From Halorubrum sp. PV6 (GTDB lineage: Archaea > Halobacteriota > Halobacteria > Halobacteriales > Haloferacaceae), in the NCBI RefSeq assembly GCF_003990725.2, contig NZ_CP030064.1, positions 1,612,001 to 1,676,000 of the forward strand: a stretch of 64,000 nucleotides of DNA, in the 5' to 3' direction. Numbering within the stretch: the stretch's first letter is position 1; each line of letters begins with the position of its first letter. Shown here in pieces: positions 59,674 to 62,714 of the stretch. Below the pieces are notes generated by a model, which was not told the origin of the DNA, searched no databases, and was given only the letters and a program-made list of their open reading frames with translations. A program made the translations under genes and the position numbers.

Positions 59674-59681
59674 GATCACCC
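59674..59681. repeat. Left 8-bp direct repeat GATCACCC (target-site duplication)
   Basis: Directly abuts the left terminus of the element at 59682 and is identical to 62707-62714, which abuts the right terminus. Eight bp is the duplication length made by IS6-family transposases. Confidence 0.8.
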
Positions 59682-59789
59682 GGCTCTGTTGAAATCCTTG
59701 AGAACTCATAGGACTGGCGTGCGAGATACAGAGGGTGGAGTCAGCACGTCTACAAGAACATATCACCTACTGAGGATTTCAACAGAGCC
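59682..59789 (+). mobile_element. Short MITE-like terminal copy A (108 bp)
   Basis: 17-bp perfect terminal inverted repeats (GGCTCTGTTGAAATCCT / AGGATTTCAACAGAGCC) enclose 74 bp. The interior (ACTGGCGTGCGAGATACAGA, then TCAGCACG and AAGAACATATCACC) matches the two ends of copy B in the same orientation, joined at a single CAGCAC (59742-59747). Confidence 0.85.
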
Positions 59790-60030
59790 GAGTCAACCGA
59801 ACAAGTGGTACCTTTTTCAGAATATACTAATCGGGACTATCGCGGGTGTAATTGCTTCTGGAGTTGTGAATAGGGGAGCAATTTACGTATTTGGTTTGGC
59901 GTCTGGTTTCTGGATCGTTTTGATAATGGCACTCAAGGCCTCAAAGCCTATTTTTGACTGGATAGAGAATAAAGAGAATGATGAAGACGCCAAGGACCGA
60001 CCATATCAAAACGCCAAATGCGCCTCTTGA
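59790..60030 (+). pseudogene. 5'-truncated membrane-protein fragment
   Basis: Directly after copy A the plus strand encodes NKWYLFQNILIGTIAGVIAS and a second hydrophobic stretch, then KASKPIFDWIENKENDEDAK and a stop at 60028-60030. There is no good start codon; the frame simply runs in from the mobile-element end, which has probably removed the original N-terminus. Two hydrophobic segments, family unknown. Confidence 0.45.
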
Positions 60031-60146
60031 AATAGCAAATTTTAATCGAATAACCTGTACTGTCCCATCGGTGAGCTCCGGAGATTGACTCTCATCTCCT
60101 GTCACATTCGCGCTCTCAATCTATCTACTCAACAACGGATGTATAA

Positions 60147-60803
60147 TTAGCTGTTCCAGCCGAACCACCCCGCTACAACACCAATAACGAAGCCAACAAG
60201 GTGCCCACCATTGATCCAATTTGGCTCGAAGTATGGACCAATAAATGGATCAACGACGACCGAGAGCATCGCACTAACTCCAAACAACACTACGATCCAC
60301 TGTAAAGAGTCAAATGGCCAGTGACTGCGAGGTAGGTGAATCAGTCCAAATCCAGCCAGCGCGTACACGACTCCACTCACTCCGTAGGATGCTATTTGCT
60401 GATCGGTAAATATGGTGAGAAACACCCCTCCCCCGACTGTTGCCATATATCCTGCCGCAATCAGGAAGACGGCATATCGTTTTTTCGACCAGTGTTTTTC
60501 TAAAGGCACACCAAGGAGAATGAGTCCGGCAATGTTCACGAGGAAATGCGGTATGCTGTTGTGAAGAAACGGCGAGAGCATCCACCCAGCAGAAGGAGCC
60601 ACACCGAATATTCCTTTGGCGACAACCTCGAGATCACCTAGCGAGTTGGTATGCATGATCCATACCTCAACAATGAACATTCCAATGACACAGCCGATGA
60701 GTGCATGAGTAATTGGTGAGCTCTCGGTAGCCAGCTGTTGAATCGCTGCTTTGCCATGTTTGATAACCTGTTCGTCCAACACATCGGTCTTTTTCGACGA
60801 CAT
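60147..60803 (-). CDS. Rhomboid family intramembrane serine protease
   Basis: 218 residues from ATG 60803. Six hydrophobic segments. Catalytic Ser143 in SYGVSGVVYALAGF (GxSG motif), catalytic His201 in NGGHLVGFVIG, and the oxyanion-side pair in IPHFLVNIAG (His86, Asn90), so it should be active. The N-terminal 30 residues are cytosolic and charged. It lies in the transposon-like segment, divergent from a membrane-tethered winged-helix gene with about 100 bp between them. Its substrate is unknown; the neighbour is an obvious candidate. Confidence 0.88.
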   Translation of the reverse strand: MSSKKTDVLDEQVIKHGKAAIQQLATESSPITHALIGCVIGMFIVEVWIMHTNSLGDLEVVAKGIFGVAPSAGWMLSPFLHNSIPHFLVNIAGLILLGVPLEKHWSKKRYAVFLIAAGYMATVGGGVFLTIFTDQQIASYGVSGVVYALAGFGLIHLPRSHWPFDSLQWIVVLFGVSAMLSVVVDPFIGPYFEPNWINGGHLVGFVIGVVAGWFGWNS

Positions 60804-60851
60804 CAATCATCTCGAAGGAAGGTAAATACTTAGTGCAGCGACAAAAACCGA

Positions 60852-60885
60852 CATTCACGGATTGCGGAACGGCATTCAGTGAATG
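60852..60885. promoter_or_regulatory. Putative operator in the rhomboid / winged-helix divergent promoter
   Basis: CATTCA-G-TGAATG (60873-60885) is a perfect dyad about a single base, and a further CATTCA half-site lies at 60852-60857, 21 bp away. Placed between two divergent starts, it is a likely binding site for the winged-helix product. Confidence 0.45.
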
Positions 60886-60905
60886 TAGAACGGGAACTTA
60901 TTACG

Positions 60906-61493
60906 ATGACAACACCAGATGGCGACCTTCCTGAAGATATTGAGTCTCGTATCGATCCGGGGAGTTACGATATGGAACTCACCCAGAGGCATGTCGCTCT
61001 AGAGTTCGTTTTTGGAGATCGTCCCTTCTATACTGTCGCCCAGATGCACGCAGCTCTCGGAAGTGGTGTCAGTCCGGATACGGTCCGATCCCGGTTAGAT
61101 GAACTAGAGGAACGGAACGTGCTCAAGAGTGAGCAAGCGAACAACGGGAACATCTACTGGTTGCTCAGTGAGGATTCTGATTGGCCTCTACCTCCAGACG
61201 TGGAGGTCGAACCAGAGCAGGATAAGATGACGGTCGTTGAGTGGCGTCAACAACTACACGTACAGGTTGCGGCTCTCTCTGTGCTGACCGCCATTATCGG
61301 AACCGCAATAACCCTTATCGGGACTTTTCAAGCAGGAGGGTACTACCAACTCCCGATCAACACGAACAATCTCCTTGCATATGGACTATCAGCAGGTCTC
61401 CTCAGTTACTTTGGCCTGTTTCTTGCTGGAGTCCTTTGGTTTATTGAACTGCCAAGTGTTGACGATATCCGGCAAATCCTACAGTCGAGATAA
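60906..61493 (+). CDS. Winged-helix regulator with C-terminal membrane segments
   Basis: 195 residues from ATG 60906; an upstream GTG at 60879 would lie inside the putative operator. Residues about 20-90 form a winged helix (LTQRHVALEFVFGDRPFYTVAQMHAAL, then SPDTVRSRLDELEERNVLKSEQ and a wing ending IYWLLSEDS). An acidic linker leads to two hydrophobic segments (about 120-141 and 155-180). The regulator is therefore membrane-bound with its DNA-binding part in the cytoplasm. The rhomboid gene next to it suggests release by intramembrane cleavage; this is inference. Confidence 0.75.
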   Translation: MTTPDGDLPEDIESRIDPGSYDMELTQRHVALEFVFGDRPFYTVAQMHAALGSGVSPDTVRSRLDELEERNVLKSEQANNGNIYWLLSEDSDWPLPPDVEVEPEQDKMTVVEWRQQLHVQVAALSVLTAIIGTAITLIGTFQAGGYYQLPINTNNLLAYGLSAGLLSYFGLFLAGVLWFIELPSVDDIRQILQSR

Positions 61494-61522
61494 ACAGCTT
61501 TGTTGAAACCATCTATCAAAGT

Positions 61523-62706
61523 GGCTCTGTTGAAATCCTTAGGAACTGAAAGGACCGGCGTGCGAGATACAGAGGATGAGTACAGCACAACGCCTTCTCT
61601 GCTTCGGTAGGTCTCAGCTGCGTCACTGATCAACAGACGGGCGTATCGGGCGACGTAACATCAATCAAATCTCATGGTAAGGTTGAATCCTGCCCACCGG
61701 TCACAAAGATTATACGGTGCTTCTCGAATCGATAGCTGTCTAATGGATGTTAAAAACACCCGTCTTGTGGCGTTCGCAGTCTTGGTGGCTCTCCTTCTTG
61801 TTGCTCTCCCATTTTATCCCGGAACTTTCAGCCCAGGACACGACCCAAATTCGTATAACTACAAACATCAGATCGAAGAAGGCCCGACAGAGAATGTTAC
61901 CGGCGAGGCTGACAACGTCACCGGTAATCTGGACCTTGGTGAGGAGACCGACGTGGAACAAATCACGTATGAATACGAGGAACTGTCCCCGATAGCACAA
62001 GTGTTGTTTGAGCGGACTCTGAACGCCGAATCGCTGACGCACACTCCAGCCGTGTGTGAAGAATATGTGCTTATTTGTGACGGCTACTACGAACATGACC
62101 TCCCGTCAGAATTCAGATACGGTGCAGGGGGAGAGGACGAACTTCGCTACTCGATTATCGAGTTCAACGGCAGCCAATACCTCCTTCGAACTGGCGTCTT
62201 ATCATCCGGTGCTTGGGAGAACCTTCATATTGCGATTTTGGTGGTTTTATTCCGTGCTCTGATGCTTCTCCTCGGTGGAGCGATCATTACTACGACAGTT
62301 ATTCGGCTCTCAGACCGTTGGACGGGTGTAAACGGGGGTAGATACTCTGCCCTTGTCGGTGCAGGAGCGACGTTTGCCGTCCTCGGCTTCCTTACGCCGT
62401 ATCTCGAAATCTATGGTGGGATCGATTATACCTCGGTCCTATTGGCAAGCGGGGTCATAGCCGCAATCGGTTATATCTCCGTCCAGTATATTTTGCGGAC
62501 TCGTCACTGAAATTGCCTATGGCGGCTGTCGCCACATAAATTTGTGAAATTTATATACGAAAATAACTCCGGTAAAGATGGGTCGGCGATGACGACAAAT
62601 CCCTTGTAGAGAGCATCGTGGACCGACCTCGCCTTGTACCACATTCGCGTCCTCTATTCAGCACGGCTCCAAGAACATATCACCGATTGAGGATTTCAAC
62701 AGAGCC
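61523..62706 (+). mobile_element. Long terminal copy B (1,184 bp) carrying a membrane-protein gene
   Basis: Left end 61523-61588 and right end 62659-62706 are the two halves of copy A in the same orientation, separated by 1,070 bp of other sequence. A CAGCAC hexamer lies at both junctions (61583-61588 and 62659-62664). Copy A could derive from B by deletion between these hexamers, or B could be a copy of A that received an insertion. The only gene inside is a membrane protein, not a transposase. A weaker TIR-like AGCTTTGTTGAAACC lies just outside at 61495-61509. Confidence 0.75.
61743..62510 (+). CDS. Membrane protein carried in terminal copy B
   Basis: 255 residues from ATG 61743, with TTATACGG about 28 bp upstream. 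A signal-anchor segment (about 8-25) is followed by an extracellular domain of about 130 residues with several Asn-x-Thr/Ser sites and the stretch ITYEYEELSPIAQVLFERTL, which I associate with a haloarchaeal domain of unknown function. Three more hydrophobic segments lie in the second half (about 158-182, 198-215, 227-246). Two cysteines in CEEYVLICDG could form a disulfide. Function unknown. Confidence 0.7.
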   Translation: MDVKNTRLVAFAVLVALLLVALPFYPGTFSPGHDPNSYNYKHQIEEGPTENVTGEADNVTGNLDLGEETDVEQITYEYEELSPIAQVLFERTLNAESLTHTPAVCEEYVLICDGYYEHDLPSEFRYGAGGEDELRYSIIEFNGSQYLLRTGVLSSGAWENLHIAILVVLFRALMLLLGGAIITTTVIRLSDRWTGVNGGRYSALVGAGATFAVLGFLTPYLEIYGGIDYTSVLLASGVIAAIGYISVQYILRTRH

Positions 62707-62714
62707 GATCACCC
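62707..62714. repeat. Right 8-bp direct repeat GATCACCC (target-site duplication)
   Basis: Directly abuts the right terminus (62706) and is identical to 59674-59681. Joining the two flanks with one copy would restore an uninterrupted empty site. Confidence 0.8.

Follow-up and report, generated by a model that had tools for sequence, protein, structure and literature searches.

Haloarchaeal genomes carry helix-turn-helix (HTH) regulators that are anchored by a transmembrane (TM) hairpin and encoded divergently from a membrane partner, and we give even weight to the reading that these loci form a modular system in which, at the locus described here, a rhomboid protease cuts the regulator. That locus lies in a 64,000-nucleotide window, the whole stretch of DNA analysed (C1:1612001-1676000), in the Halorubrum sp. 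PV6 genome (G000; 3.04 Mb, two contigs), at 60-62 kb, where GC content drops from about 0.70 to 0.49. The head-to-head pairing of regulator and enzyme recurs in other haloarchaea, assembled several times from unrelated components, which suggests, short of proof, control of the regulator through cleavage by the enzyme.

The rhomboid gene product matches the Pfam Rhomboid family (PF01694, MEROPS S54) with an E value of 3.6e-17 and a score of 63.3 bits against a cut-off of 22.6. Numbered from the ATG at 60803, the serine of its GVSG motif is residue 143 and the catalytic histidine, in a later TM, is residue 201; both are invariant across the eight sequences of alignment A5, and a phmmer comparison with GlpG (2nr9, E = 8e-4) aligns the active site. 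The preliminary description had proposed a Ser143/His201 rhomboid, and with this predicted dyad intact the enzyme is apparently competent for proteolysis. The regulator gene runs in the opposite direction, with 102 bp between the two starts. Its reading frame is open over 60879-61493, as first reported. Alignment A1, in which four homologues all begin at the equivalent ATG, places the start at ATG 60906 and not at GTG 60879. Two hydrophobic C-terminal segments, starting at about residues 121 and 162, are conserved across the family. With two predicted C-terminal TM helices, the protein has the membrane feature of the transmembrane transcription regulators (TTRs), in which at least one TM region is predicted. 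The two membrane segments described earlier are thus confirmed, and the layout described with them, divergent genes with an intramembrane protease encoded beside a membrane-anchored regulator, is borne out. Pfam gave sub-threshold matches of winged-helix (wHTH) type to the regulator (e.g. Penicillinase_R, E = 0.006), and a low-confidence model shows a helix-helix-beta hairpin arrangement followed by long helices at 110-148 and 153-179. The DNA-binding domain is likely, if not proven by sequence, to be a winged helix; the single-sequence AlphaFold models (pLDDT 55 and 48) were too poor for fold searches. Coordinates of all features are collected in the table.

Table. Features of the mobile unit and its borders (positions within the window).
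Feature	Position	Strand	Basis or remark
Left 8-bp target-site duplication GATCACCC	59674-59681		Identical to 62707-62714
110-bp MITE-like element, left boundary of the unit; ends GGCTCTGTTGAAATCCT and complement	59682-59791		Repeat families D1/D2, I3
Open frame entering from the MITE-like element; two hydrophobic stretches, acidic tail	59792-60030	+	ORF reading
Rhomboid intramembrane serine protease, 218 aa	60147-60803	-	Pfam PF01694, GlpG 2nr9 phmmer match, alignment A5
Divergent intergenic region with dyad ACATTCAC-N20-GTGAATGT at 60851-60886	60804-60905		Weak against shuffles
Tethered winged-helix regulator, 195 aa, two C-terminal TM helices	60906-61493	+	Alignment A1, TM scan, low-confidence model
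Second TIR-bounded segment, ends as in the MITE-like element, right boundary of the unit	61523-62706		Repeats D1, D2, I4, I7
Membrane protein, 255 aa; N-terminal TM, external domain, three C-terminal TMs	61743-62510	+	No Pfam family
Right 8-bp target-site duplication GATCACCC	62707-62714		Identical to 59674-59681

The intergenic dyad, which had been put forward as an operator candidate, is present and contains the palindrome CATTCAGTGAATG, but a palindrome with 6-bp arms and a loop of 0-1 occurs in about 4% of simple shuffles, and comparable palindromes in about 4-10%. CATTCA half-sites were looked for as a common operator at the sibling loci and are not conserved there, and a common operator across these loci was rejected on that ground. 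Because shuffles can yield such a palindrome and the half-sites are not conserved, we regard the dyad as a weak operator candidate only. A scan with a sigma-70 promoter model, which is unsuited to archaea, returned nothing.

Both genes are contained in a 3,025-bp mobile unit with IS-like ends (59682-62706). Its end motif, GGCTCTGTTGAAATCCT, is found in 39 copies in the host genome, against none for a reversed-pattern control, and exact 8-bp duplications also flank four more elements of that genome with the same ends (329, 362, 545 and 759 bp). An empty site is present in genome G045: there 238 bp separate the matches to the left and right flanks of the unit, and the counterpart in the window measures 252 bp once the unit and one duplication are removed. 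Given this empty site and the exact duplications, the whole unit with all three of its genes (rhomboid, regulator and membrane protein) was most simply inserted as one piece, and the earlier view of the pair as transposon cargo is confirmed by the TIR-bounded unit, its exact 8-bp repeats and the empty site alike. No transposase was seen within the 3,025 bp, and we therefore take the unit to be non-autonomous. The duplications and end sequence suggest an element of IS6 type; the unit has the inverted ends and 8-bp target duplication that characterize IS6-type composite or pseudo-compound elements. A PADLOC search of the window proteins returned nothing.

Several smaller features of the unit and its relatives were noted. 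Two small overlapping ORFs with TM segments lie 3′ of the rhomboid gene (59941-60105, minus strand; 59792-60030, plus strand); by eye, neither resembles the small two-TM proteins discussed below, and the second is probably a gene fragment cut by the MITE-like element. The 255-residue membrane protein has a relative (26%, E = 9e-7) encoded just 3′ of an unrelated tethered HTH in G144 (L180:2273-2998), and proteins of this type are possibly a further recurring component of these loci. Elsewhere in the host genome, an element at C1:1712060-1712833 (L073:744-1517) has the same terminal repeats, with 7 of 8 duplication bases matching. Its sole gene encodes a 164-residue protein that is winged-helix-like, with weak Pfam matches (E = 0.015-0.04), and has two C-terminal TMs.

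The preliminary description had held that its proposal would fall if homologous pairs were not adjacent elsewhere. For the strict pair this is what is found, and by that measure the idea would be refuted: close relatives of either protein occur without the other, and orthologous synteny of the exact pair was rejected. No rhomboid lies within reach of the close homologues of the regulator in G050 and G033 (about 57%), in G066 (47%) or on a Haloferax lucentense plasmid (57%), whose record begins at this point, so that the upstream side falls outside the sequence checked. Among 11 other full-length relatives of the window wHTH, only the one in G240 has a rhomboid next door. From the protease side, the closest relatives are in G387 (49%) and G301 (43%), followed by others at about 28-38%; none of the best 24 or so has a tethered HTH neighbour, and the absence of any paired relative outside the window locus counts against cleavage. 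Scans of viral contigs with the window wHTH, the window rhomboid and A1, A2 and A3, and of phages with the window wHTH, found no homologues; scans of genome contigs with single proteins found none.

What does recur, non-orthologously, is the pairing itself. Tethered HTH proteins of four unrelated families are encoded divergently from rhomboids of three lineages at eight further loci, and one HTH family is divergent from DUF3267 zincin peptidases at two. The G240 wHTH-2TM protein, from another genus, is 35% identical to that of the window and its gene diverges from a rhomboid gene whose product shares about 24% identity with the window rhomboid over the core. Relatives of the G240 rhomboid are found on plasmids of Haloarcula sinaiiensis (52%) and H. 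pelagica (48%), where the divergent gene encodes a second tethered HTH family, HTH_11 (which passes Pfam) followed by two C-terminal TMs, with no detectable kinship to the first family; one and the same rhomboid lineage is therefore paired with two kinds of tethered HTH protein. A profile comparison of the A1 and A3 HTH families gave a probability of 1.4%, and homology between them was rejected. Searches with the second HTH family located a rhomboid-like protease of a third lineage as the divergent gene in G123 and G218, and a putative DUF3267 zincin peptidase with an HExxH motif in G209 contig 9 and Haloplanus rubicundus (E = 1e-16 and 1e-17). Searches from the third protease lineage located a third HTH-2TM family in G359 and G049 and a fourth HTH family in G209 contig 18. 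Pfam is silent on the third and fourth families, whose HTH nature comes from reading the sequences. Against Pfam Rhomboid, G359 and G049 exceed the cut-off and G123 falls slightly short of it; the proteins of G218, G209 contig 18 and Haloplanus go undetected and were assigned as rhomboid-like solely from homology and motifs; profile alignment of the A4 rhomboid-like lineage with that of the window is weak (E = 5e-4, probability 32%). Catalytic residues, Ser and His in the rhomboids and HExxH in the DUF3267 proteins, are present in the paired proteases. A protease encoded with a membrane-anchored regulator, as in systems of regulated intramembrane proteolysis, is thus found in the window and again in other haloarchaea.

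Elsewhere, the divergent upstream gene at loci of the first and second HTH families nearly always encodes a conserved small two-TM protein. That of the first family is mostly about 55-70 residues long (about nine loci), and the second type has about 90 residues (ten sequences in the alignment, two of them from loci of the third HTH family). At three loci, in G359, G049 and H. sinaiiensis, the small protein and a rhomboid occur together: in the first two, the 90-residue gene directly precedes and overlaps the rhomboid gene, opposite the HTH, and in H. sinaiiensis the two are separated by a DUF7344-type gene. From the loci with replacement and these three with both, we conclude that the place of the small partner is either taken over by the protease or used by both. 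In G142, a locus closely related to that of H. sinaiiensis retains the HTH and the small two-TM gene, with the rhomboid reduced to a short remnant (L174:2768-2938, E = 5e-6); loss of the protease thus need not take the other genes with it. Most family members have the small partner and no adjacent protease, which counts against universal proteolysis by a neighbour.

In the system that we envisage, the regulator would bind the shared intergenic region, its presumed DNA target, and control both genes. Its partner is an intramembrane protease of rhomboid or DUF3267 zincin type, a small two-TM protein, or the latter together with a rhomboid. A membrane signal would lead the rhomboid to cut in or near the TM hairpin, the signal, the cleavage and its direction all being putative, and the cut would release the regulator, inactivate it or prime it for degradation. 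If the N-terminus is inside, cleavage by a rhomboid close to the outer face would not free the wHTH from TM1, and a further cut, dislocation or degradation may then be required; a DUF3267 enzyme would escape this difficulty if it acts like a site-2 protease. Conservation of the TM hairpin is equal in the window regulator and in relatives that lack a rhomboid, and nothing therefore marks it as adapted for cleavage in the former. The rhomboid may have substrates other than the regulator. More tentatively, and with somewhat less than even confidence, we suggest that the pairs are a mobile SREBP-like system, in which hairpin-tethered HTH proteins of several unrelated families would be cleaved by interchangeable rhomboid or DUF3267 enzymes, with the two-TM protein as gatekeeper.

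The scarcity of adjacent proteases among family members makes a non-proteolytic mode a serious rival, if one that we consider rather unlikely. Here the tethered HTH would act from the membrane, as a TTR stabilised or tuned through binding by the divergent membrane protein, in the manner of ToxR/ToxS; the rhomboid would be a regulated target gene or would stand in for the small partner by binding. About nine A1-type and ten A3-type loci have the small two-TM partner and usually no protease, and TTRs with a co-component have been described in bacteria (PMC10269533). Archaeal ArnR and ArnR1, with two C-terminal TMs, are known membrane-bound regulators, and the paper on them does not contain the words protease or proteolysis (PMC6396743). 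Such a mode would not lead one to expect what is found at the paired loci, where two mechanistically different protease classes with intact catalytic motifs replace the partner.

Divergent regulator-target pairs are common, and the HTH could simply sense a membrane signal and control the rhomboid gene, with the rhomboid cleaving other surface substrates. We find this local regulation improbable: it leaves unexplained the near-constant TM-hairpin tether of the regulator and the small two-TM partner beside the rhomboid at three loci, although deletion of a haloarchaeal rhomboid does alter motility, adhesion and glycosylation (PMC11985538 and PMC4343526).

With the window and all loci located through the protease excluded, the gene immediately upstream and divergent encodes a rhomboid or DUF3267 protein at 5 of 22 HTH loci (G240, G123, G218, G209 and Haloplanus), for which P is 6e-9 at a base rate of 0.003 and 2e-6 at 0.01. 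Conversely, a tethered HTH is encoded divergently at 3 of 26 loci of the third protease lineage, its two seeds found from the HTH side having been left out (P = 1e-4 and 2e-3 at the same rates). These P values were calculated after the pattern had emerged during exploration, with base rates that are estimates, from about 2-7 rhomboids and 0-2 DUF3267 proteins per genome and about four TTRs per archaeal genome, the last from PMC10269533. As a control, a broader group of tethered-wHTH proteins with a related DNA-binding part (about 35 loci) was found to have other conserved neighbours and no protease next door; nor do the haloarchaeal rhomboids beside EF-1alpha/S10 genes have a tethered HTH neighbour. 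A widespread haloarchaeal tethered-wHTH group with two C-terminal TMs (L009-L020, L143-L162) has a conserved membrane protein, DUF4870-like in appearance, encoded downstream on the same strand. That the two genes are functionally unlinked neighbours brought together by chance on a mobile unit would fit the IS-type insertion and the lack of a conserved strict pair, but is highly implausible given that the same divergent layout recurs independently. Chance adjacency of regulator and intramembrane protease is very unlikely because that layout recurs from unrelated parts, and for a functional link such non-orthologous recurrence is stronger support than synteny by inheritance would be.

A two-TM hairpin with the N-terminal DNA-binding domain inside, as envisaged here for the regulator, is also the topology of SREBP. 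In bacterial regulated intramembrane proteolysis, too, an intramembrane protease (e.g. SpoIVFB) is tied to transcription control; there the substrates are pro-sigma or anti-sigma factors, the proteases are mostly S2P, and to our knowledge divergent tethered HTH-rhomboid pairs are not involved. Activation of fungal SREBP, a transcription factor anchored in the membrane until its N-terminal DNA-binding part is set free, requires a rhomboid, Rbd2 in S. pombe and RbdB in A. fumigatus (PMC4863583). This requirement makes cleavage of the window regulator plausible. In contrast to SREBP, a eukaryotic bHLH protein acting with the Dsc complex and SCAP or SppA, the present pairs are prokaryotic, unrelated in sequence and encoded by adjacent genes. 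TTRs combine an N-terminal HTH with membrane segments, and some bacterial ones use a partner protein (PMC10269533). ArnR and ArnR1 resemble the window regulator in being HTH proteins with two C-terminal TMs, and ArnR differs in its HAMP and sensor domains and kinase input (PMC6396743). In the available parts of these two papers, no rhomboid or DUF3267 partner of TTRs or ArnR was found. Rhomboids have been described in haloarchaea, and their natural substrates await identification (PMC11985538; also PMC4343526, PMC9263693); Rho1 and Rho2 of Haloferax volcanii are likewise haloarchaeal rhomboids, but chromosomal, and in the 2025 paper on them the words transcription, HTH and neighbor are absent (PMC11985538). 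The preliminary description knew of no archaeal system of this form, and the partly accessible literature, with subscription journals mostly outside its coverage, likewise yielded no description of paired archaeal tethered HTH and rhomboid genes. Neither the parts nor the principle is new; what appears to be new is their combination and its recurrence in modular form.

If cleavage takes place, this would be the first archaeal pathway of regulated intramembrane proteolysis with both substrate and protease identified. Archaeal rhomboids are widespread and their natural substrates are not known; the loci described here provide candidate pairs of protease and substrate in haloarchaea amenable to genetics, which makes archaeal regulated intramembrane proteolysis directly testable. 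Repeated swaps of HTH family, protease family and two-TM partner at one slot point to a general design for signalling from membrane to DNA, spread in part by plasmids and IS-type units.

Further proteases and other genes adjoin some of these loci. In Haloplanus, a rhomboid-like gene (GFSA, with a later His; L173:4591-5424) is convergent with the tethered HTH gene, and the DUF3267 gene lies on the opposite side. Truncated copies of the second-family HTH in G076 and G204 (L182:396-1908 and L186:1444-2743) adjoin Rce1-like (CPBP) proteases (PF02517, E about 1e-14); Rce1/CPBP is a possible third protease class, and these loci were left out of the counts because their HTH genes are broken. The G240 pair (L163) adjoins defence-type genes, HmaC/DUF499 and HmaB-like, and the Haloplanus rubicundus plasmid pair (L173) adjoins a HamB (Hachiman-type) helicase gene.
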